A DNA stretch of 23,418 nt. Source: Neoconidiobolus thromboides FSU 785. Its lineage: Eukaryota; Entomophthoromycota; Entomophthoromycetes; Entomophthorales; Neoconidiobolaceae. Where the stretch lies: assembly GCA_025603075.1 (NCBI GenBank), contig MU626527.1, positions 1 to 23,418 of the forward strand, read 5' to 3'. This document shows, piece by piece, positions 1 to 23,179 of this stretch (the stretch's first letter is position 1; every line of letters begins with the position of its first letter). A program made the translations under genes and the position numbers. Below the pieces are notes generated by a model. It saw nothing but the letters and a program-made list of their open reading frames with translations, searched no databases and was not told where the DNA came from.

Positions 1-310
1 TTAACCATATTTCCACTTTGGTGTTCCTCGCCTAAAACTTTACCCCCAATTAATTTAGCTACTCGTTGGCCTCCTTCCCATGCCAAATTATGAATATAAT
101 TGATAATATTATCCTGTCCATATTTCTCGATAAAATCTAAAGAAGCATCTGTTGCTAACCAACATGAAAAATCAATAGTACCTGGCCACTGAAAAGTAGT
201 TTGAAAATTATTTGACCCATAACCAACTGCAATAACTGTGGGATGAATAATGGACTGATACTCTTTTCTAACGTACAATACAGAGGTAGGACGATAAGCG
301 TAGCCCCATT
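1..310. repeat. Inverted repeat arm A (partner 3740-4049)
   Basis: Base p of this arm pairs with base 4050-p of the partner. I checked all 310 positions and found two mismatches (g290/t3760 and a99/c3951) and no indels. The arm codes for residues 228-330 of the intact aminotransferase. It may extend past the window start. Confidence 0.95.
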
Positions 311-992
311 TGTGTAACGTAGTCGAAAAAAAATCTACCTTAGTTTTAGCTATATTGAGTTTAATTTGTCCAAAAGCATGCGCTCCATCAACTACTACTT
401 TAGCACCATGCTCTTTAAATAAGATAGCAAGCTCTTCATATGGAAGAATTAATCCAGGTACAGATATAATAGCATCCAAAACAGCTACCGTAATTTTAAT
501 ACCATTTGATTCTGCTTGCTCAATGGCCTGCTTTACTGATTCAATTAATTGTCTATCACTGACAGGCTTATGTCTAAATTCAATTAAGTTAACTCCCTGT
601 TTTTCATTTAAAAATTGAATCAATACATTCACTGAATTATAAGCGGTATTGAAATAAAATAAAGTATCTTTCTCGGTTAACTCTAAACTCCTTAAGACTA
701 CGTTAATACCCTGAGTTGCATTTTTTATAAATACTACATCTTCTGGATTTGCACCGATAATATTTGCTATTCTTTTTAATGGCTTTTGTAAGTTTTGTTG
801 AAGTGGACCAAGCAACAATAAATCTGGATGGGACTCAATAGCGTCTAACCACTTGATTCTACTTTCTCTTACACTTTTAGGCACTGTACCAAAACTACCA
901 TTGTTCAAATGAGTTAATTTAGGATCTAATTGAAATTCTTGCTTGATGTTGTCACCAAAGGCTTGTTGATTGTCATTGTTAAGTAAAACCAT
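1..992 (-). CDS. Class V (PLP-dependent) aminotransferase-like protein, C-terminus cut by window start
   Basis: This open frame of 330 codons runs from the ATG at 992-990 to the window edge with no intron. It matches the isopenicillin-N-epimerase/Egt2-like branch of class V PLP enzymes. The N-terminal substrate motif NNGSFGTVP lies at residues 30-38. The PLP-contacting motif VVVDGAHAFGQ lies at about 199-209, with D202 and H205. The Schiff-base lysine is K228, in TTLHKWGYA. QWPGTIDFS (about 268-276) is the family's later WPGT motif. Going by the related copy at 3057-4281, about 77 residues are missing and the full protein would be about 407 aa. No signal peptide is visible, so it is probably cytosolic. 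The substrate cannot be told from sequence; desulfurase, lyase and epimerase activities all occur in the family. Its last 310 bases are almost identical, inverted, to 3740-4049. Confidence 0.85.
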   Translation of the reverse strand, partial: MVLLNNDNQQAFGDNIKQEFQLDPKLTHLNNGSFGTVPKSVRESRIKWLDAIESHPDLLLLGPLQQNLQKPLKRIANIIGANPEDVVFIKNATQGINVVLRSLELTEKDTLFYFNTAYNSVNVLIQFLNEKQGVNLIEFRHKPVSDRQLIESVKQAIEQAESNGIKITVAVLDAIISVPGLILPYEELAILFKEHGAKVVVDGAHAFGQIKLNIAKTKVDFFSTTLHKWGYAYRPTSVLYVRKEYQSIIHPTVIAVGYGSNNFQTTFQWPGTIDFSCWLATDASLDFIEKYGQDNIINYIHNLAWEGGQRVAKLIGGKVLGEEHQSGNMV

Positions 993-1621
993 TTTAATTT
1001 TTAAAAATAAGAAAAGATCAAGATTTCGTTTTTTTATAGTTTTTTAAGTTGCCTTATGGCACAAGGATGATATTTAAAACTTACTTCATTGGAATTTTCA
1101 GTTCTACAATTTTAATAGTGCGAAATTGCGTTATGAAAAAGAAATAATAGTCATTGTGAACCATAACTAAGGGTATATTAGAATTTCATTAAATTAGAAT
1201 AAGGTTCAATTAGTAATCGAAAATTATAATAATGTTTATATTTTATCAGCAATGATAAAGTAAAATAGTTAATAATTGAATAAAATTAAGGTTTTTGAAT
1301 AATTCTATATTCTTAATATCCGTTACTGAACAATAGATTTTCATAAAGTTTATTATTATTAATCATCTTCTGAGCAATATTTTGTGATATAACGTCATTG
1401 ATAAGATTAAAAACAATAAAGCTACTATCTATCATAATAGCTATAGGGCTTATTGGTAAAATATCAGACTATTGTGCAAAAGGTATATACATATGTAATA
1501 ATATTTACAAATAATTAACTATTGAGAAATGTATAATTTAACTAAGTTTCAATATTAATAGCTATTATTTATACATATCAAATAAAAAGAATCAGCTTAT
1601 AGAATTACTAAATTTTAAAAT

Positions 1622-2024
1622 ATGGGGATGTATTTTTTTGTTTAAGAATTTTACTAATAATCTTCTGCTAAGTGGCGCTTAAAAAGTGAAAAAGTAATGA
1701 AACAAAAAAATATCCCTATATAGTATTTTTGACTTAGCATAACTATAGTGAGAAAATTTTGACCAAACTGAAATAAAAATTCTGAAAATAATTTTGACAA
1801 AAGTGAACAAAATTGAATATTTCATTTTAAATAAGAATTTTGTTCACTTTGAGAGGGGGTTGCTATTAGATTTTTTTTCTTGCTATAGTTGTAACAGGTT
1901 GAAAATACTATATTAGGATATAAGGGTGTTTTTTTTGGCCTCATTGCTTTTTCTATTTTTTAAGTGCTATTTGAGTGGGAAAATTGTTAGCAAAGTTCTT
2001 AAATATAAAAACATATCCTCATAT
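1622..2024. mobile_element. Foldback element made of two inverted copies of a short repeat family
   Basis: The left copy (1622-1718) begins TATGGGGATGT and ends near TATCCCTATA. The right copy (1920-2024) is the same sequence inverted, beginning AAGGGTGTTTTTT and ending ACATATCCTCATAT. Complementarity continues inward: 1715-1730 pairs with 1902-1917, and the ACTATAG block at about 1742-1749 pairs with CTATAGT at about 1883-1890. Each arm is therefore about 130 nt, imperfectly matched. No coding capacity is present, so this would be non-autonomous (MITE or foldback type). That label is inference from terminal inversion and copy number. Confidence 0.65.
1800..1850. repeat. Perfect 15-bp stem inside the foldback element
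   Basis: AAAGTGAACAAAATT at 1800-1814 is exactly complementary to AATTTTGTTCACTTT at 1836-1850, with a 21-nt loop. It sits in the loop region of the larger foldback, so the structure is nested. Confidence 0.85.
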
Positions 2025-2467
2025 ATTGGTTCTACCTAAGGATTGATGTTTTTATGGCTTTGGTTTATAAAATTATGAACTCAACACAAACACTATCAAA
2101 ATGTTTTTTTTTATATTTACAGCCTTTAGAAATCTTTTACGATATAATTAATTCTTTTAAGATTTTTTTAAAATAAAATTTAGTTAAATATAAAGTTTAG
2201 GCCTTAATAAAACTATCTATATAAATAATTTATAGAAATCGTTGCCAAAAAAAACCCAAAAGTTGCAACAATTATAATTTAGAGTAAATCATATGAGAAT
2301 ATTTTGTTTTTATATCTTGTAAATTATGCCACACAGAAAATGGACAAAATAGTAAAGCAATAAAAGTATTCCTATATGATTCTTACAAATTTGACCTAGA
2401 CCAAACTATAAAGCTTTATCTACAATTTTCCTCTTGACACGATTGTAAAATAAGCTAGATTTGATTC

Positions 2468-2488
2468 AATGTTAATTTGATTAACATT
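2468..2488. repeat. 9-bp perfect palindrome with 3-nt loop
   Basis: AATGTTAAT, then TTG, then ATTAACATT. This short hairpin in noncoding DNA could be a binding site or chance in AT-rich sequence. Confidence 0.5.
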
Positions 2489-3056
2489 GTAAATATCTTT
2501 AGTTTCATTATCTTATCCATTAAATTACTAAGAAGAATTTTTTTGAATAAAGTTCTAAACAAAAAACAAAAGACTCTATTCTTAAAATAAAAAATGCTCA
2601 AAGTAAAAAGTGGTAATTGAATAAATAGTTTTGCTTGATGAAGGGTCCAGTTTGAGTTGAAGTTACTCTGTAATGATTTCTAATGCTCAAGTTTAAGAAA
2701 CACTCGTTTAATAAAAGGAAATGTTTCTTTGATTTCACTTCATCCCTTTTTATGCAATATCGATATTAGATAATTTGTTAGTAAATACTGAAGTAAAAAA
2801 GGTATCTCCAGCCCTATTCTTATCTAACTAGATCCTATTCTAAGTGATGATAATTTGTTTAAAAAAGCAAAAGTTCTTAGCTACAATATTAGCTTTTATA
2901 TTTAAATTTTTTAATACATAGCTCTTATTATTCCAATTACATCAATTATTTTTTGAAAAAGCCTGCTATTTATGGACTGGCCTAATAGAGCTATTTCTTA
3001 TACTAAAGTTTACAAGTTCTCTTGCATATATGAACCCACCTAATATAAAAATAAAA

Positions 3057-4281
3057 ATGACATTGCTTAATGACAATGATAATTCACAACCCTCTGGTAA
3101 TAGTATTCAACATGGATTTCAATTAGATTCTAAATTGATTCATTTAAACAATAGTACCTTTGGCACAGCTCCTAAGAGCGTAGAGGAAGTCGAATTAGCT
3201 GGTTAGATGAAATAGAGTCGAATTCCGATTTAATGATATATAACATATTTCATTCGCTTTTAGAGAAGTCTTTAGGAGAGATAGCAAATATGGTCGATAC
3301 AAATCCACAGAGTATTCTGTTTATAAATAATCCCACTCAAAGCGCTAATACCATTTTAAGAAGTTTAAATTTAGCCGAGAAAGATACTTTGTTTTATTTA
3401 AATATTGGTCATAGTTCAGTGAATGTACTAGTTTAATTTTTGAAAGAGAAGCAAGGAGCTAACTTGATTGAATTTAGACACAAATCTGTTAGTGATAAAA
3501 GTTAATTGAGTCAGTGAAACAAGCTATTAAAGAAGTAGAATCAAAATCTATTAAAATAATAGTAGCTGTTTTGGATAAAATTATATGTTCGTCTGGATTT
3601 ATACTACTTTATGAAGAGTTTGCTGCTATATTTGAATAGCACGGTACCAAAGTAGTAGTTGATGGAGTATATGCTCTTGGACAAATTATACTTAATTCAT
3701 CAAAAAACAAAGTTAATCTTTTTACGACTATATTATATGAATGGGGCTACGCTTATCGTTCTACCTCTGTATTGTACGTTAGAAAAGAGTATCAGTCCAT
3801 TATTCATCCCACAGTTATTGCAGTTGGTTATGGGTCAAATAATTTTCAAACTACTTTTCAGTGGCCAGGTACTATTGATTTTTCATGTTGGTTAGCAACA
3901 GATGCTTCTTTAGATTTTATCGAGAAATATGGACAGGATAATATTATCAACTATATTCATAATTTGGCATGGGAAGGAGGCCAACGAGTAGCTAAATTAA
4001 TTGGGGGTAAAGTTTTAGGCGAGGAACACCAAAGTGGAAATATGGTTAATATCGAGTTGCCATTTAATTTGGATAATGATAAAGATTATGGCGCTTTATT
4101 TGCAAACTATATTTGGGAGAAATATCACTATCGTATCAAATGCTTCTACTATGAAAATCAATGGTATCTTCGATTATCTGGCCAATTGTTTTTAACTTTG
4201 GAACACTTTGAAAGTTTTGGGAAATTGGCACCTAACGCTATTACTGAATTTAAAAAATCTTTAAACCCTACCCATTTGTAA
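3057..4281 (+). pseudogene. Class V aminotransferase pseudogene (paralog of the gene at 1-992)
   Basis: Homology to the intact copy runs from the ATG at 3057 to the TAA at 4279-4281. The 5' half is broken. A one-base deletion near 3185-3200 leads to TAG at 3204-3206. A nonsense TAA at 3434-3436 replaces a Gln codon. A second one-base deletion lies near 3500, and TAG at 3637-3639 replaces a Glu codon. The catalytic lysine codon has become GAA (3739-3741). From 3640 the frame is open to 4281, and from 3740 to 4049 it is almost identical to the intact gene. After 4050 it supplies about 77 residues of C-terminal domain ending in NPTHL. In the N-terminal half only the diverged NNSTFGTAP motif survives. 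A functional short protein from the 3' open frame is unlikely because it lacks the PLP lysine and most of the large domain. Confidence 0.9.
3740..4049. repeat. Inverted repeat arm B (partner 1-310)
   Basis: This arm is 308/310 identical to the reverse complement of 1-310. In the 84 bases just before it (3661-3744, overlapping the arm by five bases) I count 23 mismatches to the paralog, so the boundary is abrupt. It falls inside the codon of the former catalytic lysine. Confidence 0.95.
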
Positions 4282-4699
4282 TTTGATTTGTATAATTAAA
4301 TAACTCTTTAAAATTGTATATTTATATGTTTATTTATAATTTCATTTAATGATTTCACTTTTTTGTTTTATTTTATATCAAATATTTTTTTAGTATCAAC
4401 TTTATAAATGTTGAATTATTAAATTTAATATATTAAATTCTCAATTTAAATGCTAATTCACCAATTTATCTATTTGATTGGCGGATGGTTCAACACTATG
4501 AAATAGTAATTGAATATGGTATGTGCAAAATAATTAAGATAGAACATAAGCTATAAATGTAAGTTCTAATAATAAGTGAAGTAGTAAAATAAAGTAAAAA
4601 CATTTATAATTAATAAACTCGATTAATTAAAGTTTTAATCTTGCTGTTTCTTACTTCTTTATTTTTTAAAACAGTTCCGGGCGAACTTTACCTCTCATT
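4282..4699. other. Intergenic, AT-rich, no gene seen
   Basis: This stretch lies between the pseudogene and the kelch gene. It presumably carries the kelch gene's promoter and 5' leader. The last 30 bases are less AT-rich. No element is recognisable. Confidence 0.5.
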
Positions 4700-6109
4700 A
4701 TGTTTCCAACTCACTTGATCTTAGGGCTCTATTTTATTTTGTTAGTTAGCTCTCAATCTTTAGATATCTCATCAATTAGCTCTGGAAGCTGTATAAAGAA
4801 CAATGATAAAATTATTTATTTAGGTGGAGTAAAAGGCCAAGTTAATAAGAACCAAGATAATCAAAATAATGATAAAATATTGACATTAGACTTAACTAAG
4901 CAATTCAATGTATCATCTGTACCATGGCAGTCACTAGCAAGTTCGAATAACTTCCCAAAAAGAGTATATTCAAAATCTATTTTTATGTCCAACTCAGATA
5001 CAATTATCAACTTTGGTGGTTCTAACTCTCAGCCTTTATATCAAACATTTGATTTAAAAGCATTGAAATGGTCATCAAATAAAGAAGCATCTAAACAATT
5101 TTTAGATATTATGAAAAAAGGAAAAAGGAGCTCTCCGGAAGATACCTTCGGTTTTACCTTATTACAAAATGATCAAAATCCAGATGAGTTTATCTATTAT
5201 GGCTCAGCAGCTGCAAAAGTACCAAAGAAAGAAATTTTTACTGCAAAGATATTAATTTATAATATAAAATCAGAAAAATGGAGCGAAATATATAGCGATA
5301 ATACACCTGCTTTGGATCACATTTCTATAGTTTATGGTGGAAAATTATATTCTTTCTTTGGTACGGATACGAGAACCTTAAAAAATAATGAAGAAGTAAG
5401 AATCTTTGATTTAAAAAGTAAAAAAATGACAGTATCAAAGACTTCAAGTCCGCCACCAAAAGTAGAAAAATACTCCTATACTAAAGTCAATGATCAACTT
5501 TATGTTATACCACATACAAAAGAAATGAATTCCAATATATACATTTTAAATTTAAAAGACAAGGATCTTAAATGGTCAAAACAAACTATATCTAATTTTA
5601 AATCAAATCAACAGGGGTGCTTTGTTGATTATTATGGCTACTTACTTTTCTTTTCTGGAGAAACTGATAACTCAATTTCAAGTGCTCAAATAATCAATCC
5701 TCAAACCTGGAAATTAATGGATGCTCTGTCTATCTCCAGTGATAGATCTAATAATAATGAAAATCCACATGACTCAAGTATATCAAATAGTACCGAAGAA
5801 AACAGGAGTAATTTAGGGGCTATCGTAGGAGGAATCGTAGGAGGGATAATGTTTTTAGTATTAGCTGGGTTAGGGATTTACTTTTTTATTTATAGAAAGA
5901 AGTCAATGGAACATAATGAATCGATGGACTCTGATCGCCAATTAATTCAAGAACCAAAAATTGTACCTTTACCAGAATCGTTTGATAATAGTGTATTAAA
6001 TTGTAGTTATTCGACTATAGCTACCTTTTCAACGCATACTGAGCATCCATTTAAAACAGCTGATAGCTCCCCATTACCCGCTGCTTATCTTGCTCAAAAT
6101 ATCAACTAA
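4700..6109 (+). CDS. Kelch-repeat type I membrane protein
   Basis: A 469-aa protein without introns. Residues 1 to about 19 form a hydrophobic signal peptide, with cleavage likely after the SSQS region. The ectodomain (about 20-365) contains degenerate kelch blades: paired strands with GG or G-turn motifs (YLGGVKG, NFGGSNSQ, YYGSAAA, FFGTDT, FFSGETD) followed by a Trp or aromatic 12-20 residues later, as in ALKW, SEKW, DLKW and QTWKL. That is about six blades, consistent with a beta-propeller. A Gly-rich stretch leads into one transmembrane helix at about 373-398, followed by the basic stop-transfer RKK and a cytosolic tail of about 68 residues. Proteins of this plan (signal, kelch, GG-rich helix, short tail) are abundant in early-diverging fungi. 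Ligand and role are unknown; surface sensing or adhesion is a guess. Confidence 0.85.
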   Translation: MFPTHLILGLYFILLVSSQSLDISSISSGSCIKNNDKIIYLGGVKGQVNKNQDNQNNDKILTLDLTKQFNVSSVPWQSLASSNNFPKRVYSKSIFMSNSDTIINFGGSNSQPLYQTFDLKALKWSSNKEASKQFLDIMKKGKRSSPEDTFGFTLLQNDQNPDEFIYYGSAAAKVPKKEIFTAKILIYNIKSEKWSEIYSDNTPALDHISIVYGGKLYSFFGTDTRTLKNNEEVRIFDLKSKKMTVSKTSSPPPKVEKYSYTKVNDQLYVIPHTKEMNSNIYILNLKDKDLKWSKQTISNFKSNQQGCFVDYYGYLLFFSGETDNSISSAQIINPQTWKLMDALSISSDRSNNNENPHDSSISNSTEENRSNLGAIVGGIVGGIMFLVLAGLGIYFFIYRKKSMEHNESMDSDRQLIQEPKIVPLPESFDNSVLNCSYSTIATFSTHTEHPFKTADSSPLPAAYLAQNIN

Positions 6110-6615
6110 AATTTTAGTGCTGATTTTTGAACCTTAAGTTAAATAAATTTTAATATAAATTTTAATTGATTGTTAAAAATATACCCCCTAGAACATCTTA
6201 AATGTAATAATGTTTTAATTGTATTTGTTAGTGTTTAATAGTAATTCTGTAAAATGGTTTAAATATATTGCAATAATATAAAATCACCTCAACTGTGAAT
6301 TATAGTGTTAGAAATTATTAACTTTAATCCGCTTTATTTTATAAATTAAATATTAATACTAATACTAATACTAATTAATTAATTTAGAAAAGTTGAAGTA
6401 AAATTATTCTTAGAAAAATAATTTCTATTAAGTTTATAATTTACAACGATAAAATTACATTTATAATGATATATTCTTTACATAAATATAAAACTTTTAA
6501 ATTAATCAATTAATCTATATCAATAACAATCCTTATTTGATTTAATACTAATAATTGTACGTTTTATTTAAATTTATTACAAAGATAATTCTTATTTACT
6601 CAATAAAGAATAAAC
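6110..6615. other. Convergent intergenic region with an ACTAAT tandem repeat
   Basis: This is the shared 3' flank of the kelch and copper transporter genes, extremely AT-rich. A short run of ACTAAT units lies at about 6353-6375 and is followed by AATT-type repeats. It should hold both polyadenylation regions. No gene is visible. Confidence 0.5.
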
Positions 6616-7320
6616 CTAATGACAAGAAGATTGAGGACCCGAATGATTTTCTGGATTGACTTTAGTATCAAAATCAGTAGATTGATTTCTAACGATACCT
6701 CCACTACCTAAAGAATGACGGGGGGATGACAAACCTTCATGTTCTGGGTCAAATTTACTCTCAATTGAACCCTTAGAACGGAAACGAGAGAATAAAAACA
6801 CTCCAACTGCATGACCTGCAACCACTGAAAAGAACAAACCAACATTATAGATCATAGTTACCAACATTAAAAAGTAAGCTAAGGTAGACTCAACAAAACG
6901 AAGTAAAGATAGGATTACTGCTTTACCCCAAGTGATTACACTCGACATTTCAAAAAACATAAACTTATTTTTTGAAATCAAGGTTTCTTCGGTATTACCT
7001 TGAACTCCAAAAGAGTTTGCGGTGATATCGGCGGCTTCAGCTTCTTGAATCCATTTGGCTTGAAGGTTAGAACCAAACACCAAAAAGCCTTCTAATAAAA
7101 TACCTAAAAAGAAAAAGAGAAGCCAAGCACCTGAATAACTACCATATGTTTTTGGTACCCAAGATTGAAACATCATATAATCATTGATACCACCATGAAA
7201 ATACATCTTCATACTTGGTGCTGAATTGGAATCGGAACTACTGTCATGATCATGTGCTAGTGCAGTAGTACAAAGCAAAGCTACTGTAAATACGAATAAA
7301 TTGCAAATTTTAGATAACAT
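6616..7320 (-). CDS. Ctr-family copper transporter
   Basis: This 234-aa single-exon protein starts with a signal-like hydrophobic segment (about 5-22), then an His/Asp/Ser-rich stretch and the copper-binding motif MKM at 37-39. TM1 lies at about 64-83. TM2 (about 134-158) carries the Ctr signature MxxxM (M152, M156). TM3 (about 161-178) carries GxxxG (G169, G173), which packs the trimeric pore. The long TM1-TM2 loop and the C-terminal tail are cytosolic, and the tail ends in Cys-His, as in several Ctr proteins where it binds Cu(I). The family imports Cu(I) across the plasma membrane or exports it from the vacuole. The few Met motifs (one MxM rather than several MxxM clusters) recall Ctr2/Ctr3-like members, so the membrane is uncertain. 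Two TTCTAGAA palindromes lie within 100 bp upstream. Confidence 0.92.
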   Translation of the reverse strand: MLSKICNLFVFTVALLCTTALAHDHDSSSDSNSAPSMKMYFHGGINDYMMFQSWVPKTYGSYSGAWLLFFFLGILLEGFLVFGSNLQAKWIQEAEAADITANSFGVQGNTEETLISKNKFMFFEMSSVITWGKAVILSLLRFVESTLAYFLMLVTMIYNVGLFFSVVAGHAVGVFLFSRFRSKGSIESKFDPEHEGLSSPRHSLGSGGIVRNQSTDFDTKVNPENHSGPQSSCH

Positions 7321-8108
7321 TGGAATTGAATTTAAAAAAGTTAAAAGATAAAGCTTCTAGAAAGTTATTAAAGGGGTTTTTAGGTTCTATCTGCCTTCCA
7401 AATATAGTAGCCTTCTAGAACGTTTCGCTTCTAAGGAAGAAAGTTGGTTTCTATTGTTAAATTTTGATTTGCTAGAATTTAAACCCTTTGTGTTTTGGCT
7501 AGATTTATTGGAAGCTGTGGTCCTATCAAATTGCTTGCTTATTCAGTGATTTTAATAATATTCTTTAATAGAGTATTTTGTAATTATTTTAATTAATGTA
7601 TCAGATAAACATAATAAAAATATATTATTATCTAAGACCAAAAGCTTATTATTATATTAAAGCTCTACTTCTGACTTATATAAACAAAGTATCAAGTCAA
7701 TGTAAATAAACTAAATTTCCTAAAATTTCCTACTTGAACTATGTAGTAATAAGCTGCGAATTGATTACATTGACATTAATACCTAGAATAGATATGGTTA
7801 TATAAATTTTATTAATCATGGGTATAAATATAGCAGGTAATGTAATAACTTCAACATAAAGATTAAAATAATGAAAATATAAAGACTAAAATGACAAAAT
7901 AAAGTAATTTATCAACCTGATAAAACTATATAATTTCAAGTCAATATAAAGAGCCAATAAAAAAGCTTAAAATCAATTTAAGTTTGGGCTAATTGGGCAA
8001 TATTATTAAATCAATATCCCATTACTCATCCACATTAAATCAAACAGTAAAGCTATACGGTAAATTCCTTTCCTCTTGGTACCATAAGGTTATATAAAAT
8101 CAACTGAA
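7321..8108. promoter_or_regulatory. Divergent promoter region between CTR-like and RPL20 genes
   Basis: These 788 bp separate two divergently transcribed genes. The half nearest the transporter is less AT-rich. It carries two TTCTAGAA palindromes (7355-7362 and 7413-7420); the second continues cgTTTC, one base from a three-unit heat-shock-element pattern. GGAAGCTGT at 7510-7518 fits the loose GCTG-core copper-signalling element described for fission yeast Cuf1. These are pattern matches only. The half nearest RPL20 is plain AT-rich sequence. Confidence 0.35.
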
Positions 8109-9036
8109 ATGGGTAAAGTAAGTAAGAAATACAAATTTTACAAGAGATTATAAAGGATAATGACAATAACAGAAAAGTAAAATGACCAAAAAGGATAAAA
8201 AAACAAGAAATATAGAAATCCAATTAAAAAAATAAAAAATACATCCATCTAAATATCCAACAAAAAGCAGTAGAAAATATTATACATGAAAGAAACAAAT
8301 CGAGCTATTATAAAAACGATAAAATTAATAAACAAAAAATATTAAAAAGATGTCATATTAGCTTAACGAATATCAAGTCATTGGACGTAAGCTTCCTACT
8401 GAAAAGGAATCTTCCCCAAAGATTTTCCGTATGCGTCTTTTCTGTCCTAATGAAACTGTTGCCAAATCTCGTTATTGGTATTTCATGAAAAAGGTTTCTA
8501 AAGTAAAGAAAGCTTCTGGAGAAATTCTTTCCGTTAACAAGGTAACTAAAATGATGCCTAATGTTTAAGATTATATATTTATTTTTATAAAGATTCACGA
8601 AGCCAAACCTCTTAAAGTTAAGAACTATGGTATTTGGTTACGTTATGACTCTCGTTCCGGTACCCACAATATGTACAAAGAATATCGTGAAATGTCACGT
8701 GCCGAAGCTGTTGAAGCTTGCTGTAAGAGAATTGTCTAATTTTAATTGTAATAAGTACTTATAAAAATATATAGATCTTGATTTAGCTGCTCGTCACCGT
8801 GCTCGTTTTAGATCAGTACAAATCATCCGTGTAGCTGAAATTGCTGCTAAAGATGTTAAACGTGCTTATATTCAACAACTTTTGGTATATCTTTATAACA
8901 ATAATCAAATTTTTATATCTAACTTTTTTTTTAGAAACCAAAGCTTACTTTCCCTCTTCCTCACCGTGTCCTCAAACCAGCTCACAAGAAGCACCGTGCT
9001 CTCTTCCTTGCCAAACGTCCTTCTACTTTCTGTTAA
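8109..9036 (+). CDS. RPL20: 60S ribosomal protein eL20 (L18a/L20 family)
   Basis: Five exons: 8109-8117, 8362-8541, 8593-8722, 8775-8884 and 8935-9036. The first exon codes only Met-Gly-Lys and is followed by a GTAAGT donor and a 244-nt intron. The start was chosen because the reading frame entering [12 protein letters not shown] has an in-frame TAG just upstream at the intron end, so the nearer ATG at 8350 cannot be the start. The other introns are 50-52 nt, with clean GT/AG ends; the last has a CTAAC branch-like site and a polypyrimidine tract. The assembled protein (about 176 aa) carries the family's [38 protein letters not shown] and FPLPHR motifs and ends in KRPSTFC, close to the yeast KRPSTFY. 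eL20 lies on the 60S subunit near the 5S rRNA and eL21. A tiny first exon with a long intron is typical of fungal ribosomal protein genes. Confidence 0.95.
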
Positions 9037-9958
9037 AAACTTTTAGTTTTAGGCTATGTTGAGGAAGTTTAAAAATAAACTAATTTAAAAATAATGGATA
9101 TTAAAATAGGGTAATTGGAATTAAAGTAAAATATTTTATTAGAAACTATACATATAATAATTTTAGGTCTTTATTTTTATTAATATATATAATATAAGAT
9201 ATTTCAGATAGAGCTTAAAATGGATAAGTTTGTATAGTAAAATAGTAGGAGTAAAAGTATAATAGTTAATAAGGAGGACTGTTTTGAAGTATTGAAGAAT
9301 CTAGGAGCTATATTCTATTTTTATCCCCTCATAATCTTGAATAGTTTATTATAGGGGGATATATTTTTATGTTTAGGGATTTTATTAACAATTTTCTCAC
9401 TTAAGTAGCACTTAAAAAACGGAAAAGTGATGAAGCCAAAAAAAGACATCTCCATATGCTTTAATACCCTCCTATGTTAGAAGTTTTTAAATAGAGATAT
9501 ATTGCAGTTCAGCCATAATTTTTCTATTTAATAAATTAGACTTTTGATAATACATATATATATCATCCTTTATTTTCTTCATGATTTTTGATTTATATGA
9601 TCGAAAGATCTATTTTTTATACTCAAATATTAAAGTCATATTTAATAGGAAGTAATAAAATAACTTCTAATAAAGTAGGGCCTGAAATACTATCCCCATT
9701 GCTTATCTTTTCTCTCACTTAATATACATTTAATATCTATTAATGAAGTACTTATGAGTAAGTAATAACTTTTGAAAAATACAAAAAAAATATTTAAAAT
9801 AAAATGAACCTATTTAAAATAATTATTTAAATATTATATTGTTACTTTATGAATTCATCCATTCCCCTTTTATTTCATAATTAAATAAAACCGTTAATTC
9901 AATTACTATTAAAACCTTAAAAATAAATTAAAAAACAATATCAGTATACGATTTATAA
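9037..9958. other. Convergent intergenic region with one short repeat copy
   Basis: No coding frame is visible between the ends of RPL20 (+) and the DM9 gene (-). Apart from the repeat at 9354-9455 it is AT-rich sequence that must contain both transcript ends. Confidence 0.5.
9354..9455 (+). mobile_element. Short interspersed repeat copy (GGGGATGT family), single
   Basis: It begins GGGGGATATATTTTT and ends GACATCTCCAT. The middle (ttaagtagcacttaaaaaa, then ggaaaagtgatgaagcc) aligns with the other copies in the same order. The orientation is the same as the left arm at 1622. No partner copy lies nearby, so single copies exist as well as inverted pairs. Confidence 0.65.
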
Positions 9959-10456
9959 TTAACTAGAAACATTATTAGGTACTGCTAATACATAATAATA
10001 ATCCAATTCACTGACTGCTTTTTCTTTATAAGCATAAGTATACATCAGCCCATTAGGAAAGTGTTCACCTACTTTACCTATGACAACCCCACTTCCCACT
10101 TGCGTTTTCCCTACATAAAGTTCTTTACCGTCCGCTTCATAACCCACTTCAAGAGGTGACCAACCACGTAATTGAATTCTACCTGTACATTGTCTCCAAT
10201 ACAACAAACTTTCATCCCCCACTAAAATTTCATAATCGAATAAAAAATGTTCTTTTCCTCCATAAGCAATCGAGGCTCCTCGAATATGTGGGCCTGCTTT
10301 TCCAGGTACTAAAGAACCATTAAACATAGCTCGAGCTACAAATAAAGGTTTTCCATCACCTTCTTGACCACCTTGGACCGCATTTGGCGGTATTGAACCA
10401 CTCTTTGCTTTAACCCATTCAAATTGGGGATGTGATCGACCAGCTCTTTCGCTCAT
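9959..10456 (-). CDS. DM9-repeat (DUF3421) protein
   Basis: This 165-aa intronless protein contains two tandem DM9 units, about 13-80 and 82-158. The first shows FEWVKAKSGSIPPNAVQGG, then PLFVARA and GSLVPGKAGP. The second shows LEVGYEADGKELYVGKT, GVVIGKVG and LDYYYVLA. The repeated 'LFV.RA...G.L.PGK' and 'LYVGKT..G..VIGKV' halves are the DM9 signature. No signal peptide or membrane segment is present, so it is probably cytosolic. DM9 proteins are best known from insects and molluscs, and some bind mannose and act in pathogen recognition; the role in fungi is unknown. The coding sequence is clearly less AT-rich than its surroundings, which may reflect protein constraint, expression or origin. 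Confidence 0.9.
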   Translation of the reverse strand: MSERAGRSHPQFEWVKAKSGSIPPNAVQGGQEGDGKPLFVARAMFNGSLVPGKAGPHIRGASIAYGGKEHFLFDYEILVGDESLLYWRQCTGRIQLRGWSPLEVGYEADGKELYVGKTQVGSGVVIGKVGEHFPNGLMYTYAYKEKAVSELDYYYVLAVPNNVSS

Positions 10457-11306
10457 TATTTAAAGTGATATTGAATTTTGTATGTTAAAAGAGTAATATT
10501 CTTAGTTAAATAGCTAAAATAAAATTTTAAAATGAGCTTTGGTTGATGTAACATGATGAAATTTATTAAGATTTGAAATTAAGATTGATTGGTTAAAGAT
10601 AAAAGTAAAGTTTTGTGAAGATAGTCAGTTTTTTATTAGTGTCATATAGTGGGATAGGAAATAAGTTGTTTATAAATTTGATTGCTTTTAATTATTATAA
10701 AAATAAATGAAATAAGATATATCAATGATACTAGATTCTATGTTTTTTTGAATGTAGTTATCACAATATAAATTTCTAAACTAAGACAATTTTTAAACTT
10801 ATTTTAAATCCAAAAGTTTATAGAATAATCAATGTCTTTAAAAAATTTAAAATTGGCAAATAATAAATTAAAATTTGTATAATTAATCTAATAACTAACA
10901 TTCAGGTACCTGATTAATATATAGAAGATCAACAATAATATCAAAAACTTAATTTATAGTATAATATGGGGATGTCTTTTTGTATTTAATATCTTAATAT
11001 CTTAATATCTATTTATTTTTTTATTTTTTTATTTTTTTATTCAAAAAATAAAGAAACAAAAAAATAAGGCTATTTAGTATAGTACTTTTTTATTTAAAAT
11101 GATATGACTTATTTTAATATAATAAAATATTATATATTATAATATTGATTTTCTTTTCATATTGTTCAAAAAAGCATTGATTAAAACGTATTTTAATTGG
11201 ATACATAAAAAGCCAATCAAACTCGTCAAAACATTCATTGAAAGTAAGAGAAGCAAAATAAGTACAAAGCAAGATTCTAATCTTTATAATATAACTATAT
11301 AAAAGA
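10457..11306. other. Divergent intergenic region with a degenerate repeat copy
   Basis: This region lies between the DM9 gene (-) and Mago nashi (+) and must carry both promoters. It is AT-rich with no open frame. A decayed repeat copy occupies about 10966-11078, and AT-only microsatellite tracts surround it. Confidence 0.5.
10966..11085 (+). mobile_element. Degenerate copy of the GGGGATGT repeat with internal tandem expansion
   Basis: The left end TATGGGGATGTCTTTTTG and the right end AAAGAAACAAAAAAATAAGGC match the copy at 1622-1718. The middle has been replaced by three AATATCTT-like units and three ATTTTTTT-like units. Assignment rests on the two ends only. Confidence 0.45.
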
Positions 11307-12118
11307 ATGGCTAACCCAAAAGATTCATTTTATCTAAGATATTAGTAAATTTTAATGACAATAAATTCTATCTTAATTATTAATAAAATATTTTAGTACT
11401 GGCCATACCAACAATAAAAGTGGTCATGAATTTTTAGAGTTTGAAATCAAGGGAGATGGTAGATGTCGATATGCTAATAATTCAAATTATAGAAATGATT
11501 CATTGATTAGAAAGGAATGTAAGTTTAACTTTGGGCTTTTAAGATCTAATTATGAAGATGTTCAAATTTGGAATTGATTATTAATATTGGTTTCTATAGT
11601 TTCTATAAGTCCAATAGTCATTGAAGAAATCAAAAAAATTATTCAAGATAGTGAAGTTTTTGAGTAAGTATTTTATTTAATAATAATGGAATTAATAAAT
11701 AAAGATGCTAATATATTATTATTTTTTAAACTAAATAGTTGTGACGATGAAAATTGGCCTGAAAAAGATAATGAAGGTCGTCAAGAATTAGAAATTAAAA
11801 TTGGAGAACATCACATTGCTTTTGAGGTAATTATTAAAGGATTTAAATCAAAAGAGATAAATCAAAATTGAAATTTGGAATTGAAAATAATTATTAATAT
11901 GTTAATTTATATCTTATTTTCCTAGACATCCAAATTGTTTTCGTTATCTCAAGTAACATCAAGTAAAGATCCGGCTGGTTTAGAGAAATTTTATTTTTTA
12001 GTACAAGATTTAAAATGCTTAATTATCTCCCTTATTTCATTGCATTTTAAAGTAAGTAATTATATCTATGTTTAATACGAGGAATTAATGTGATTTTTTT
12101 TAGATAAAACCTATCTAA
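11307..12118 (+). CDS. MAGO: Mago nashi, exon junction complex core subunit
   Basis: Six exons: 11307-11344, 11397-11518, 11600-11663, 11739-11826, 11926-12051 and 12104-12118, with introns of 52-99 nt and GTAAGT-like donors. They splice to a 150-aa protein, the usual Mago length. Diagnostic blocks in order are FYLRYY.GH (8-16), [48 protein letters not shown] and the terminal HFKIKPI; the last exon carries only IKPI and the stop. Mago forms the Mago-Y14 heterodimer that locks eIF4A3 on spliced mRNA. The protein is rather diverged for this highly conserved family (for example [14 protein letters not shown], where most species have a DDALWPPPD-type loop). Presence of an EJC core gene fits the intron-rich genes around it. 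Confidence 0.95.
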
Positions 12119-12777
12119 GTATATATATTATAAAATATTAAGGACCAGTTATTAATAATAATAAAATTTTAAAGTTGAGAAATGTTTATCTTTGTTTTGG
12201 AGTTTATTTTTATTGTTTATTCGATTTATTATATTCATTAATTTGATATTTTATAATGGGTATAATTATCATTTTATTATTTTATAATAAATTAAATTTA
12301 ATGAAATATAAAGTTTATTAATCTTAGTTGAAATTAAAATTTGATAGATTGTATAAAAATATATTTTTACATCTATTATAATAACATTAATATGAACTAT
12401 TATTATAAATATTATTATTTTATTAATTATTCCTTATTCTCTATATCATAATAGCAAATAAGTCAACTAGTATAAATATGTTAAAAGATTATTATTAAAT
12501 AAATTGTTTATAGAGAATATGTGCCAAAGATAATGTTTATTTAACCTTGGCTAAACTTTTAATTATATTTTTCAATTATAATCAAGTATAATATCATTTT
12601 AGAGTTGAGTTCCCTATTAAAAAATTAAAGTGAGAGGACCAAAAGAAAGATATTAGCAGTTGTCCAATTTAGACCCGAATATTACAGAATTAAAAAAAAT
12701 GCAAACCTTAAAATATTAAATAATCTCACTTTTTTCTTATTTGATTTATTTTGTAACTTTTTATAAGTAAACAGGGA
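12119..12777. other. Intergenic, AT-rich, no gene seen
   Basis: This stretch lies between the Mago stop and the SLS1-like start, both on the plus strand. Only short AT-rich frames and AT microsatellite patches are visible. The last 150 bases are less repetitive and probably hold the downstream promoter. Confidence 0.5.
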
Positions 12778-15526
12778 ATGTTCAAATTTAGCATTGGAAT
12801 AGTTAATAGAACGAAACGACTTCAATTACATACCCAAAATAACAGAATTGCTCAACTCCTAGCCCAAGTCAATAAACTTCAATATTACTCTACCTTTGAT
12901 AAGAATTATGGTTTAACAGCATCATCATCCGATGACAAACCCATCAAAAAACGACGTCCAAAACCTATTGACCCTCAAACTCAAGGAATTTTTGATTTAG
13001 CCGCCCAATTCGAGTCTTCTGCTCATATTAAACCCGTTAAAGAAGAAAGTGTTAATTTAAAAGAATATTATTTGGAATATATAGGAAAAAATAATGGATT
13101 AAATGAGATAGAAGATTTAGTAGTTAGAATAACTAAAGCATTTGATAAAGCTCAAATGAAAAAATATATACTAGATAATATTGATGGGAAATTTAAAAAT
13201 AATAAGTGGACAAAAAAAGAGTTAGTTTATTGGATATTAGAGAAAGAAGGAGTAAGAGTTAGGAAAATAGAAGAGATGAAGGAGGAGAAGGAGATGGAAG
13301 TGGAGATTATAGATAAAGTGGAAGAAGGTAAATAATTTAAAACGGATAAAAAATAAAGATATTTATATAATTAAATAGAATTTCAATCGAGTAAAAAAGA
13401 AATCTATTTTTTAATTTGTAAAGGTAAATCAAAATATTACTTAAATGAACTATTAAACTAACAATTTATTTATTTATTTATTATAATTAAAGGAGGAGAA
13501 AATTTAAGAAATTTAGAATTATTAGGCAATAGTGATATGGAAATCAATTTAGAATTGGAAAGTTATATCATCCGTGGTTCAAAGAAAGAAATTGAAAAAA
13601 CGCAAAAATTAATTAAAGAATTAATGGTAATTTAAACAAAAACAAAAGAAGATTATAAAAACTGAAAGACTAATAAATTGATTTTTTATTTTATATAGAA
13701 TTTTACCACTTTAACAATCGATATCACTTCTCTTTATCAACAAGATAATAAATTTATTAAAAAAAATGCAGAATTATTGGCGGCTATTGCACATACCACA
13801 GGTACTTATATTACTGTTTCGCATATGAATAATGTAAGTTGAGGAATATTTTTACAAAGTTTATATGTGATAATAATTGATAATTAATATTTTTAGGGTC
13901 AACAACTCTGTTTAACTGGATTAAATTCAAGAGAAATAAAACAAAGTTTAGAATGGATTTATCAAACTTTTAAATTGGTAAATAGATTATATTAATGTTA
14001 TTTAATAAATCGTTAAATATTATTATCTATATAGAATCATAATGAATTACCTAAGTTGGATTTATATTATTCAAATAGAAAAAACACATTGTATCAATCT
14101 CCAATAGTAGATTCCATAGAATTTAATTCCTTCTTTAATAATTTTTCAATGTTTCAAATCAAAGAAGATATGATTGAAGAGGTAGTTATTATTATTATTA
14201 TTATTAAAATTGAATTGTAGTTAATAATATTTTCTAGATATTAGAAGAGGACAAATATGATATTACAAAGAAATTAGATTATTTAAATAGTTATAAAATG
14301 TAAGTAAGAAATTAATGAATTTAAAATAGGAACTGAAATTCATTTTATTTTAGGTTGAACGATAAACTCATAAATAAGCATAATAATTTAACATTACCAG
14401 AAATATTTGATTCGATTACATCTAAAATAGTAAGACCTGGATTTGAACCTAAGATAATTGCAAAGTAAATTATTTTGATATTTTTACTTTTTTAATATTA
14501 ATATTAATAATATATAATAATAATAATAATATTTTAGATTTGGACATTCAACATATTTTAATAAATTACAATTTGCTCAAGCCAATTATTTTGATCAACA
14601 AATTAAAATTAATAATTTAAAAGAGCAATTTGATAATAATAATGATTTAGATAGTTATTTTATTAATAGGTAAATATTAATATATTAATATAAATTCATT
14701 TTATTAAATTTAACTTAATTAAATTAATTTATATAATAAAATTTAGTTTTCCATTACATAAATTACGTGAAGATTATCTTAAATCAACAACAAAAGAATA
14801 TTATTCGATAGAATATTCACCTATTAGTATAAAACAAAATCCATTTTTTATTAATGATTATTTTAATATTAATGAAATGGTCAAGATACCAAATAAGAAT
14901 TTATTACTTGAATTAGATAAATTAAAATATAATTTAAATTTAAAATTTAAATTATATATTGATGAAAACAATAATACAAAAATTGAAGATAGTTATTACT
15001 TAATGGATCAACAAATAGTTAATTTAGAAATTGGGAATAGGTAATTTAATAATAATTAATAATAATAATTTATGTTTTATTTATAATATTTATAATAGTA
15101 ATAGTTCATTACAATTCCAAATATTTAATCAAAGTAATTTGTCTTCTAATTTAGAATGTTTTAAACAATATTTGAATAGCATAAAAATTCAAAATCAACA
15201 AATATATATATTAAATCAATTTGAGTTTCCTATTTTAAATCAAAATCAACTACAATTTCAATTAGTTAAAGTACAAAAGATTAAAGAGTATAAATTTGAT
15301 ATCAAATTAAATGAATGGGATAAAGAGATACAAGTAGAATGTTTAGAAGTTATAGGAAATGAAAAAGAGGAACAACATAGGAGAGTAGTTAAGGTAAATG
15401 AAGAGATTGAAAAAATTTTAAATTAAAAATATTAATAATGTATATTTACTTTTTTAGACAAATATTTCAAATGATGAAGAAAGTACAAATGTGTTAAATT
15501 CAATTATTAATTTATGTTATTATTAA
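12778..15526 (+). CDS. SLS1-like mitochondrial inner-membrane gene-expression factor
   Basis: Eleven exons: 12778-13327, 13493-13626, 13699-13833, 13897-13977, 14035-14181, 14238-14299, 14354-14464, 14538-14669, 14747-15040, 15099-15393 and 15458-15526. All junctions are GT/AG and in frame, giving 669 aa; yeast Sls1 is of similar size (643 aa). Residues 1 to about 40 are Arg/Lys-rich without acidic residues, a mitochondrial presequence. Next come KKRRPKP, a helical segment resembling the SLS1 N-domain (KYILDNIDGKFKNNKWTKKE, about 127-146), and then a KH-like unit in exon 2 (LELLGNSDMEI...YIIRGSKKEIEK). In yeast, Sls1 couples mitochondrial transcription with translation at the inner membrane. 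The assignment rests on domain order, length and presequence, as overall similarity is low. If the last intron is retained the protein ends at 15426 instead. Confidence 0.6.
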
Positions 15527-15618
15527 ATTAAATTAATATAGAATATAGAAAGTTTTTAATATAAAAATAAAGTAGATTATTTAATTAATTATTAATAGAA
15601 GAATGAATCAAAATTATT

Positions 15619-15690
15619 TCATTTTATTTTATTTTATATTTTATATTTTATATTTTATATTTTATATTTTATATTTTATTTTATTTTATT
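15619..15690. repeat. TTTTATA tandem repeat at the convergent SLS1-like/IPK1 junction
   Basis: About six TTTTATA units are flanked by TTTTA units and fill much of the 159-bp gap between two convergent genes. The tract reaches the IPK1 stop codon (15686-15688). Transcript ends of both genes must lie in or near it. Confidence 0.85.
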
Positions 15691-16087
15691 TGATATTAGC
15701 TTTAACAATATTTTGATCTAATTGATAATAATGATCTAATTTCATATGGGACTTTGGATCTAAATCAACAATACCTAATTGATAATAAATCTTATCTTTA
15801 TTTTTTAGCCAATCTTTTAATATTAATTCATCTCTGAACATCTCTTTATCAATGTTTTTTAATAAGTTACTATCAAAACTAAGAAGAATATTAAGTATTA
15901 ACAGCTATTAGAGTAATAGAGAATATAAAAGGAAACTTACTTTATAGAATCGTTACTAATTAATGGAATAGTTAATAAAATTGAACAATCTTTAAAACTT
16001 AAAGAAGCAATAAATGCATAAATTGCAGTTAATATATCATTATCATCCGTAAGATTAATATTTTTATTAAGTTCATTATTATCTATA

Positions 16088-16118
<31 letters not shown>

Positions 16119-17396
16119 TAAAAATAAAATTTAAATTCTAAAAACTTACTATTTAAACTTTCAATTACATTTAACCAATCTTTTTCTATTGGTTCTTCGA
16201 TTTGTTTATTTTCTAATTTCTCTTTTAGTTGATAAATTCCTTCAATATCATATTTATCTAATTTTAATTGAGCTAATTTTAATTTATATAATAATTTATC
16301 ATTTAATAATATAACAGATATTAAACAAATAAAAAATTGTTTGATATTTCTTCATAAATAAAATAATTTAATATAAATAAATAAAATACAGATGATTAAA
16401 CTTACACTTCAGATGAAATATTAAAATCAAGTGATAGTAAGTCAAATGCCTATAAATAAATAAATTATTAATACAATATTTCAATAAATTTAAAATAAAT
16501 TCAATTCACCTCTTTCACCTCTATTTCTATTCCATCCCTGAATAACCTCAAGTTATTTTGTGGAGTTTGAATTAATTGACTAAGACTACATTTGATCTTA
16601 TCAATATTCTGTGAATAAAGATCCATTGGACAATATTCACTTTTTGTTTTATTTCCTGATAACAATTTAAATTCTTGATGTAAACAAAATCGACATTTAG
16701 TTAATTTGATCTTATTTTGTTCCAAAATATATCTAGAAGTAGGCAGAAAACCCCATTTTGGCTAATTAAAAAAGGATAATATTTAATTTAATGCTTAAAT
16801 CATTATTATTAATATCAATCAACTTACTTTAATTTCTATGCCTAATGTATTTCCCTTTCTTAACGGTATACTTTTATAAATCATTAATAAATTTTGACTT
16901 AAAAATATATATTTAGCATTCCAGTTTAATCGTTTGTTTCTTCTAAATTGGGGTCTAGATAAATAGATTTGATCATCTATGGATTTAATAAACCCGATAG
17001 TTGGTTGAAGGAATAACTAATAGAATATTGAGGTTACTAAAATAGATGGGTTATTATATGAACGTTATGATTGACTTACATTAAATGGTAAATAATCTTC
17101 TCCTATGAGTGAAGTCACTATAATGTCTTTAAATATTTTGATTTTTATAGGATCCTTAACAATATCTTCTTTATTACCAGTTTTTGTTAATCGTAGTATT
17201 AAATTATTCTGTAAAAGTTAATTCTTAATTTTTCTTTTTATTATTATTATCAAATTTCAATATAGCTTACTAATTTTGAGTTAATTCCAATATAACCTAA
17301 TACAATGTTTTCATTGCCTTCTTGAATATATTGCCAGTTACTAGGGACAAAGATTTCAGATTCAGGATAAGATGAGATTGAAGTATTGGAAGTCAT
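15686..17396 (-). CDS. IPK1: Inositol-pentakisphosphate 2-kinase
   Basis: Eight exons on the minus strand: 17396-17271, 17208-17080, 17016-16828, 16761-16510, 16449-16406, 16349-16150, 16082-15941 and 15878-15686. They splice in frame to 424 aa. Family motifs appear in order: NWQYIQEGNENIVLGY near the N-terminus (about 20-35; the nucleotide-binding G-loop region), LRLTK, then EIKPKWGFLP (about 146-155), CRFCLHQEFK, YCPMDLYS, PQNNLR, DIEGIY, FKDCSI, and C-terminal YQLGIVDLDPK and KLDHYYQLDQNIV. VDLDPK supplies metal- and ATP-binding Asp residues. The enzyme phosphorylates Ins(1,3,4,5,6)P5 at the 2-position to make InsP6, which supports mRNA export and is the precursor of inositol pyrophosphates. 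The unusual GTGAAT donor after exon 4 is the only one that keeps the frame. Confidence 0.93.
16091..16130. repeat. AAAAATA-type microsatellite inside an IPK1 intron
   Basis: About six AAAATA units lie in the intron between exons 6 and 7 (16083-16149). They make up most of that 67-nt intron. Confidence 0.8.
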
Positions 17397-17932
17397 TGTT
17401 CAAAATATAATAATTAAGTTGTATTCTATTTTAATTGAATATTGATAGTCTTTATTAATTGTTTATTAAATTGAGTTAGTTGAATTTGATTAATGATACA
17501 AAATAACAAATTTAGAAAATTCAAAAGAAATAAAGTGAATTTAAATTAAACAACTAAATTTATTAAGGATTAATCAAGAATTTTGACTAAAATAAAATTA
17601 TTATTTATATCACCACAATGCCACTTATAAAAGTATATAAAAACCTATTAATTAGCTATAATAATAACGTATGATATATTTATTAACAAAGGGCTTTAAA
17701 TTAATAAAAATAAAAATAAAAAATCTTAAATCTTTTAATATATGGGGGTGTTTTTTTTGGCTTTCATCACTTTTTTATTTTTAAGTGCCATTTGAATAAA
17801 AAACTGTTGGTGAAATTTTCAAATACAAAATACATCACCATGCATTATTTCATGTTAAATTTACTATTGTAATTTTATCATAAAATGTTAAGCTTTATAT
17901 ATTTTAAATAAAATTAAATTTATAGGAAAATT
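17397..17932. other. IPK1 upstream region and tRNA 5' flank, with one repeat copy
   Basis: This stretch holds the IPK1 promoter (read leftward) and the DNA before the tRNA gene. It is AT-rich with no open frame. The repeat copy at 17742-17843 ends about 90 bp before the tRNA. Confidence 0.5.
17742..17843 (-). mobile_element. Short interspersed repeat copy (GGGGATGT family), inverted orientation, next to tRNA
   Basis: It begins ATGGGGGTGTTTTTTTTGG and ends TACATCACCATG. Its middle contains TTTTTAAGTGCCATTTGA and ACTGTTGGTGAAATTTTC, which match the copies at 1920 and 22513. Terminal bases form an imperfect inverted repeat. Confidence 0.7.
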
Positions 17933-17938
17933 GCGGCT

Positions 17939-17982
<44 letters not shown>

Positions 17983-18005
17983 GCGTTCAATCCGCGGTGG
18001 GCGCA
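17933..18005 (+). tRNA. tRNA-Phe (anticodon GAA)
   Basis: A 73-nt cloverleaf without intron. The D arm is GCTC/GAGC with an AGTTGGGA loop. The anticodon stem TCAGA/TCTGA encloses CTGAAGA, so the anticodon is GAA. The T arm is CCGCG/CGCGG with loop TTCAATC, and the discriminator is A. Internal A and B boxes are intact. The acceptor stem GCGGCTA/TGGGCGC has one G-G mismatch (positions 4 and 69) and one T-G wobble (6 and 67). CCA is not encoded, as usual in eukaryotes. Confidence 0.95.
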
Positions 18006-18012
18006 CATATCC

Positions 18013-18017
18013 TTTTT
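18013..18017 (+). terminator. RNA polymerase III terminator of tRNA-Phe
   Basis: A run of five T begins 8 nt after the tRNA discriminator base, the expected Pol III stop signal. Confidence 0.8.
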
Positions 18018-18404
18018 ATAATTTCAAACTAATATTAAATAACAAATTTTTACTGTATGAAAAATCAATTCAAAGTAATTTTCAAGTCAAATATAAGATT
18101 TGAATGAAGATATATTATAGTAATAATTTAATGAAATGAAAGTTATATTGAGTTAATTGAATTCTTAATAACTATTATTAAGTCTATATTTTTTACTTTT
18201 ATAAGATCAAGTTGTTCAACTAGTTTCAAAATTTATAATAAAATCTATCTATTATCATTAATAAACTTTAAAAATTCATTTAAAAAAACTCTCAATTTTT
18301 AATCACCTTTTTAATTTTTAATTTTTAATAATAAAAAAATTTGTCTATAATTATTAAAAATGTTCACCCGATGCATTTATATTTTTTCTATTCAGATTTA
18401 TCTT
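18018..18404. other. Intergenic, AT-rich, no gene seen
   Basis: This stretch lies between the tRNA and the 3' end of the mL44 gene. Only AT-rich sequence is visible, presumably including the mL44 3' untranslated region. Confidence 0.5.
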
Positions 18405-19750
18405 TTAGATTCTAGATGGAGCGTCTGAAATTTTAGTTGGAAAAAAAGTAAGTTCATCTTCTTCTAAAGTATCTGAGGGTAATTGGAAATCTTTTAATTC
18501 CGTTAAATAATAGCGAATCAATGCGTCTTTACAGGCCTAATTAATAAAATCGTTATTATCATCATTATCATTATTGAGTTTAATTAGTTTACTCTAAACT
18601 CGGCCATTTTAAGAGAGGAGCCATAACCTAAATTAAAGATGTTATTAGTTATTTGTATTTGAATATTATTCTAATTGAAATTTACTTTCTCCTAATTTAA
18701 CATCACCGGAATAAACACCAACTACAAATACTGGTCGATTAGATAATCTACCTGTCTCTTTAAGTAATCTAAATAAAATAAAATATTAATTAATACAAAT
18801 TCATTTAATTTCATTCTATCATTTCCGTCTGTCTTTTTCTATATTCAACTTTCTTTCATCCACTTTTATGTATTTACTATTTATTATCATAATGATTGTT
18901 TTTATTACTTACCTTGATACTGGTTCCGGTTTATTTTTAATTTTTAATAATGAAACTAAACTTTTTTTTGGAGTTGCTAATGGTAATAAACTATTCACAT
19001 CTACTTCTTTACTTAATAAATGTTGATGAATAAATTCTTTAGTAGCTACTGCACCCTATTGAATTAAATTTAATATTTTAATAAAAGTTAATTAATTTAT
19101 CATTACCTTATCATGATAAATAGCACCAATTAAAGCTTGGACTGATTTTCCTAATATCTTATTAAATCCTACAATTTGTTCTCCCTCACTCTATTACAAA
19201 TAATATTAAAAAATTAACATTGAAATCAATATAAATAATAATGGAATAATAAAATTACCTGTTCTTCTTTATAACGAATCAATGGTGCTAAACCAAAACC
19301 TTGTCCAATCTTGGATAATGCGTAAGGATCATAATGCACTCTTAATATATCTTCAATAGTATTAACAGGTAAATTGGGATATTTGATATAATAATATTCC
19401 GAAAGGTAAAGACCTAATACTTTTTTACCTAGTTTATAAATAGAAGATTATTATTTATTATATTATATTATATTATATTATATTATATTACCTAAATAAC
19501 GTAATCTATCATTAGTACTAGTTTTTCCTAATAAATAAGATTTATGGGTAATAACTTGTTCAATGATTTGCTTATCAGTAAAATTAATATTGAGACGAGC
19601 TAATAATGCATTAATAGAAGCATCACTTTTAACTTCAGTGGTAGTATTAGTAGTGTTAATTGGGTCTGAAGAATAATAACGTATCCTTTGGGTGGAGGTG
19701 AGTAATGACGAGATTGGGTTGGTTTTAATTAATCTTAAATTTCTAAGCAT
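18405..19750 (-). CDS. Mitochondrial large-subunit ribosomal protein mL44 (yeast Mrpl3 family)
   Basis: Seven exons on the minus strand: 19750-19492, 19428-19259, 19190-19107, 19055-18913, 18768-18686, 18627-18593 and 18536-18405. They splice in frame to 301 aa. Residues 1 to about 27 form a basic presequence ending near RIRYYSS. An RNase III-like domain follows (about 48-195), with HKS, NDRLRYLGKKVL, LGKSVQALIGAIY and HDKG. The double-stranded-RNA-binding domain (about 216-275) shows RPVFVVGVYSG, KLGE.YGSSLKMAE and ACKDAL. Compared with active RNase III (ERLEFLGD), the catalytic Glu and Asp are replaced by Arg and Lys, and the second acidic site is also lost. This is expected for mL44, which is structural. 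It faces the Rpp40-like gene across a 203-bp promoter. Intron 1 carries a TATTA microsatellite. Confidence 0.9.
19451..19490. repeat. TATTA microsatellite in mL44 intron 1
   Basis: About seven ATTAT units run directly into the GTAATATAAT donor of the first intron (19429-19491), so repeat length changes alter the donor-proximal intron sequence. Confidence 0.85.

Positions 19751-23143: not shown

Positions 23144-23179
<36 letters not shown>

Follow-up and report, generated by a model that had tools for sequence, protein, structure and literature searches.

The analysed window is the whole of contig C270 (MU626527.1), 23,418 bases of the 23.1-Mb assembly of Neoconidiobolus thromboides FSU 785. 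It starts with a gene for a class V PLP-dependent enzyme on the minus strand (3-992, codons 1-330), whose open frame is still uninterrupted where the contig ends at base 1 and shows no visible intron. The predicted protein belongs to PF00266, the family of class V PLP-dependent enzymes (E 2.7e-28; 99.4 bits against a curated cut-off of 21.5), and its nearest solved relatives by sequence are structures of the hercynylcysteine sulfoxide lyase Egt2 (PDB 5uts, chain E value 4.7e-44, and 5v12). It shares with Egt2 the class V PLP family, the HKW lysine motif and a match across residues 11-324, but the sequences are distant and other class V enzymes are also near, and an Egt2-like role is putative. 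The lysine of HKW, K228, is invariant in five relatives (alignment without P0003) and presumably binds PLP. Relatives from Massospora and Entomophthora are 45-54% identical across 95-98% of the query (among the 120 listed of 189 protein hits). The genome contains further PF00266 matches on contigs C33, C59, C35 and C213, and a protein search of the contigs with the intact gene gave five matches at E ≤ 0.001, all at this locus or at the end of contig C51. The deposited protein P0001 (241 aa) ends within the repeat described below and is 100% identical across 73% of the query. A full-length conspecific protein linking the intact gene to a C-terminus was sought, but among the 120 listed of 189 hits P0001 is the sole one that is named from N. 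thromboides and has 100% identity. The public gene model for window 3-992 is probably truncated.

A head-to-head spacer (993-3056) separates the start codon of this gene from that of an inverted pseudogene on the plus strand. In codon alignment, the diverged part of the pseudogene (3057-3739) lacks a single base at each of two sites, contains two in-register stops and encodes Glu in place of the HKW lysine. Coding bases 311-992 are identical to the pseudogene at 496 of 680 positions (73%). In two segments that align without gaps (311-548 and 554-791), the paralogs differ by substitution at 43/160 first, 23/158 second and 55/158 third codon positions, a pattern that an old duplication under partial selection would give. 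Homology between the paralogs begins only ~13 bases upstream of the ATG (window 1003-1005 and 3046), and BLAST found no similarity between them further upstream. Retrocopying of the duplicate was considered from this start of homology near the ATG; the intact gene, which shows no intron, does not discriminate for or against it.

The spacer contains two inverted copies of a dispersed repeat of ~110 bases (~1617-1728 and 1917-2027). The element recurs in the window at 9348-9460, 17734-17846, 22370-22480 and 22505-22623; it at times forms inverted pairs, and by eye one of its ends resembles the other in inverted form (GGGGATGT ... ACATCCCC). We take it to resemble a MITE. With the spacer as query at least 163 matches were obtained, its own place counted, from the best 40 of 2749 first-look candidates. 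Among the matches listed, the other matches of spacer 1004-3046 and of C51:117199-117860 are these ~110-base repeats, and a few spacer matches extend ~100 bases past the repeat.

Block R and its boundaries

The intact gene and the pseudogene both run into a 310-bp inverted repeat, block R. One copy (1-310, minus strand) adjoins the intact gene and has the contig end as its outer end; the other (3740-4049, plus strand) adjoins the pseudogene. The inverted near-identity described in the sequence-only reading of this DNA was reproduced exactly: 308 of the 310 positions are equal, with mismatches only at window 99 and 290. Directly next to R, 311-548 and 3502-3739 differ at 60 of 238 positions (178/238 equal). 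The contrast in mismatches between R and its flank has a Fisher P of 1.2e-21, and the binomial chance of two or fewer mismatches in 310 at the flanking rate is 4.3e-36. The similarity of the paralogs is therefore not uniform, which had been raised as a possible objection, and identity in R lies far above that of the adjoining paralogous sequence, as for an ectopic conversion tract. For the 84 bases up to the boundary 23 mismatches had been counted; this divergence is there, but the recount gave 22. Identity indeed starts within a codon, since the boundary lies in codon 228, AAA in the intact gene (the lysine of HKW) and GAA in the pseudogene.

The inner boundary of R is present in two contigs. 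A search of the contigs with the R arm found one additional place, C51:117861-118170, and on the pseudogene side the match extends over C51:117861-118201; C51 is 118,201 bases long, so the match reaches the contig end with the same pseudogene-R join as in the window. The last 341 bases of C51 have one mismatch to window 3709-4049, and the final 31 of them are pseudogene-specific and differ from the intact gene. These observations bear on whether the identity is itself an artefact, in which consensus building or chimeric joining put intact-gene sequence onto the pseudogene. R does touch two contig ends and contains an assembly conflict, as such an artefact would have it, but the 31 pseudogene bases at the junction are the same in both contigs that contain it, the C51 copy has a change of its own, and paralogs at ~75% identity would not normally be merged. 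We therefore consider this explanation very improbable.

Comparison of the three assembled copies of R gave three variable sites, 99, 145 and 290. At the silent site 99, A stands beside the intact gene and G both beside 4050 onward and in C51. Site 145 is G beside the intact gene and beside 4050 onward, and A in C51, where it results in A283V. Site 290 results in P235S in both pseudogene-linked copies. The copy beside the intact gene thus differs from that of C51 at 3/310 positions, and the amino-acid changes in R (S235 and V283) are confined to pseudogene-linked copies, both being present in the copy of C51. This distribution fits the intact gene as the donor of the copied sequence and the pseudogene as its recipient, with constraint relaxed afterwards. 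Since the copies of R diverge by ~1% (2 or 3/310) and the paralogs by 27% outside it, the event is much younger than the duplication.

The outer boundary is of another kind. The base at which C51 departs from the repeat is the exact counterpart of window base 1. The sequence to the left of C51:117861 does not carry the family any further, and the frame read on from R stops after six codons, the first of which spans the join. The second tract boundary, which was to be looked for beyond base 1, is thus located at the C51 end, where R passes into non-coding DNA. A conversion tract returns to the diverged paralog at its second boundary; because the sequence does not do so in C51, R is probably not a plain conversion tract. 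The proposal of an old duplication with one recently overwritten half consequently stands in part: an old inverted copy with recent intact-gene sequence in the pseudogene half is supported, but a simple tract with complete paralogs on both sides is not, as the outer boundary in C51 joins non-coding DNA.

Conflicting continuations and ownership of the C-terminus

R has two neighbours on its gene side, the intact gene and the pseudogene, and two on its other side, 4050 onward and the non-coding DNA of C51. C51 pairs the pseudogene with the non-coding DNA, whereas C270 pairs the pseudogene with 4050 onward. With only two copies of R these pairings contradict each other, and the contigs are then in conflict at a shared repeat as expected of an assembly error, provided that there is no third copy or second orientation. 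A contig that starts at the branch base would be what an assembly graph yields for a repeat with two continuations. The neighbour drawn outside the pseudogene-linked copy of R, 4050 onward, is therefore in doubt, and the question becomes which gene owns the sequence that follows.

Window 4048-4281 (plus strand) encodes the C-terminal 77 codons of the family and a stop. It had been treated as part of the pseudogene, which we do not maintain, since its frame is open and it is a family-like C-terminus without pseudogene features. It is also the only copy in the searched contigs, where no second C-terminus was found (one protein match and one DNA match); these contigs reach down to ~10 kb (the last two numbered have 10,242 and 10,029 bases), and a shorter contig could carry another. 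A database search with the 169-aa frame of R plus the C-terminus returned one protein of 96 aa, on a 118,201-base contig. The intact frame runs directly into the C-terminus, as bases 2-1 (AA) and base 4050 (T) form the same AAT codon, and the joined product of 330 + 77 codons has 407 aa. Six relatives besides P0001 were aligned (P0002-P0007, of 189 hits). The 407-residue join aligns end to end with four of them, P0002, P0005, P0006 and P0007 (405-417 aa); the N-terminus is missing from P0004 (381 aa), and P0003 (367 aa) is cut short, its model stopping inside the C-terminal part with 10/31 residues common there.

Similarity to the relatives points in the same direction, but less sharply. Relative similarity was taken as the similarity to five relatives over the similarity among them; P0003 was left out for its early-ending model, and nine of the ten relative pairs were used, all but the close P0002-P0004. 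By this measure the C-terminus scores 1.14 (95% 0.88-1.47), the N part of the intact gene 1.21, R 1.09 and the N part of the pseudogene 0.90 (0.77-1.03). The bootstrap P of the C-terminus being equal to or below the pseudogene is ~0.05, and the intervals of both overlap. Among columns invariant in five relatives (P0003 left out), the C-terminus keeps 6/9, the intact N part 25/27, R 23/26 and the pseudogene 15/27; by this measure the C-terminus lies between the intact gene and the pseudogene. The lack of disabling changes in the 77 codons is weak evidence, because the rate in the pseudogene (four in 227 codons) predicts only ~1.4. The likeness of the C-terminus to the relatives leans to the intact gene but is not clear-cut.

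Since a single copy, the frame and the similarity together favour it, the C-terminus most likely belongs to the intact gene. The favoured pairing is accordingly intact gene, R and 4050 onward on one side and pseudogene, R and C51 on the other, which means that C270 has the loop (311-3739) reversed. From the conflict between C51 and C270 and the single C-terminus, we infer that the contig probably gives this loop in the wrong direction with respect to 4050-23418. The intact gene would then be 992 to 1 plus 4048-4281, and the pseudogene would terminate in the copied R abutting C51. A misassembly at the contig edge, proposed earlier as the plain alternative, is in this modified form probably right: the 99% identity is likely real and the continuations of the R copies are likely swapped.

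Site 145 fits the favoured pairing, whereas site 99 does not: two copies permit two R haplotypes, but three occur, and a single consensus error, heterozygosity or a third copy must be invoked. A third copy is part of an alternative in which the window is right as drawn, with two complete inverted paralogs and a classical conversion tract that is 310 bases or longer, while C51 ends in a third copy of the pseudogene piece. This would account for the three haplotypes without error and for the sharp inner boundary of R. It leaves the intact gene's own C-terminus missing from the searched contigs, however, and requires as a coincidence that C270 starts at the exact base where C51 departs. Moreover, no 5' part of a pseudogene was found beyond that of C270, so that this part of a third copy must either have been collapsed or lie in an unsearched contig. 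We regard this alternative as unlikely. Both orientations of the loop could instead be real in the culture, if recombination between the R arms inverts 311-3739; some nuclei would then have the complete gene, and in others it would be cut after R. One assembly does hold the signatures of both orientations (pseudogene-R-4050 in C270 and pseudogene-R-non-coding DNA in C51), together with three R haplotypes. A single crossover should also bring along the intact allele at site 99, but this is absent, and an assembler given only one orientation could yield the same pair of contigs. A polymorphic inversion is thus quite unlikely.

Proposed break repair, probable assembly error and possible inversion

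The account that we favour, and hold to be somewhat probable as a whole, combines an old duplication, copying during break repair and a loop drawn inverted by the assembler; the odd structure is probably a small scar of DNA repair plus an assembly error. An Egt2-like PLP-enzyme gene and its old head-to-head inverted copy would have diverged to ~73% identity while the inverted copy decayed into a pseudogene. Recently, the pseudogene would have broken near codon 228, and the broken end may have invaded the homologous intact gene and copied ~310 bases. The copied end would then have been joined non-homologously to unrelated DNA, now the end of C51, with loss of the pseudogene's own 3' end. The outcome would be a 310-base inverted repeat with arms ~3.4 kb apart. 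The assembler, probably working on short reads, could not have distinguished the two orientations of the loop; it would have broken off C270 at the branch base and attached 4050-4281 to the pseudogene instead of the intact gene. The true order would be C51, R, pseudogene, spacer, intact gene, R and 4050 onward.

Strand invasion, copying of ~310 bases and subsequent end joining are suggested by R having one homologous and one non-homologous boundary. A pathway class in which strand invasion and copying are ended by end joining is known, and homologous repair ended in this way was reportedly described by Richardson and Jasin in 2000. The locus resembles such repair in its homologous boundary at codon 228, its non-homologous boundary between R and C51 and the donor copy between them. 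It differs in that break, donor and pathway are here deduced from sequence alone and were not observed.

The proposed cause of the assembly error agrees with a short-read assembly, as suggested by contig ends in ~0.5-kb repeats; the consulted portions of PMC7466969, PMC6169396 and PMC3678771 contain no statement of the assembly method. Three further contig ends were searched, and two of them (C51 left and C271 left, but not C270 right) lie in dispersed repeats. Bases 1-557 of C51:1-1500 are a dispersed repeat of ~460-560 bases with at least 39 other places at 86-95% identity (best 40 of 2611 candidates), and contig C100 also starts in it. In C271 (23,405 bases), a ~444-base sequence of the left end recurs inverted near the other end (22947-23390, 92% identical), and C88 and C177 carry sequences related to it. 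It may represent a large mobile element or a subtelomere. No ambiguous base N occurs in 30 loci (112,940 bases, overlaps counted). A doubled assembly with duplicated haplotypes was considered and rejected, as window 4282-8282 and 22700-23418 match only themselves and no doubling was seen in either stretch.

Inversions of chromosomal segments have precedents in fungi. In Saccharomyces, a flip/flop region of chromosome XIV with 4 kb arms and a region of 24 kb occurs in both orientations across strains, according to the part of PMC9731477 consulted. As there, a segment flanked by inverted repeats that homogenisation of duplicated genes keeps alike can change its orientation, but the present locus has a 310-base arm and a 3.4 kb loop, and its flip is more likely a choice of the assembler. 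Hansenula/Ogataea polymorpha is reported to switch mating type by inversion of a chromosomal region (PMC4238957). This is a fungal precedent for a switch by chromosomal inversion, but no mating-type genes or signs of regulated inversion were seen at the locus studied here. That the 310-base arms act as an on/off switch by inversion, in which a flip of the 3.4-kb loop gives the C-terminus either to the intact gene (407 aa) or to the pseudogene (leaving a truncated enzyme) and both states coexist, is an idea to which we give very little credence.

The favoured account would probably correct the public gene model P0001, whose 241 aa end in block R, and it predicts that C51 and C270 are neighbours. 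It would also offer an example of repair that was begun by homology and finished without it. Should the flip be true, an early-diverging fungus would possess a small genetic switch at this locus.
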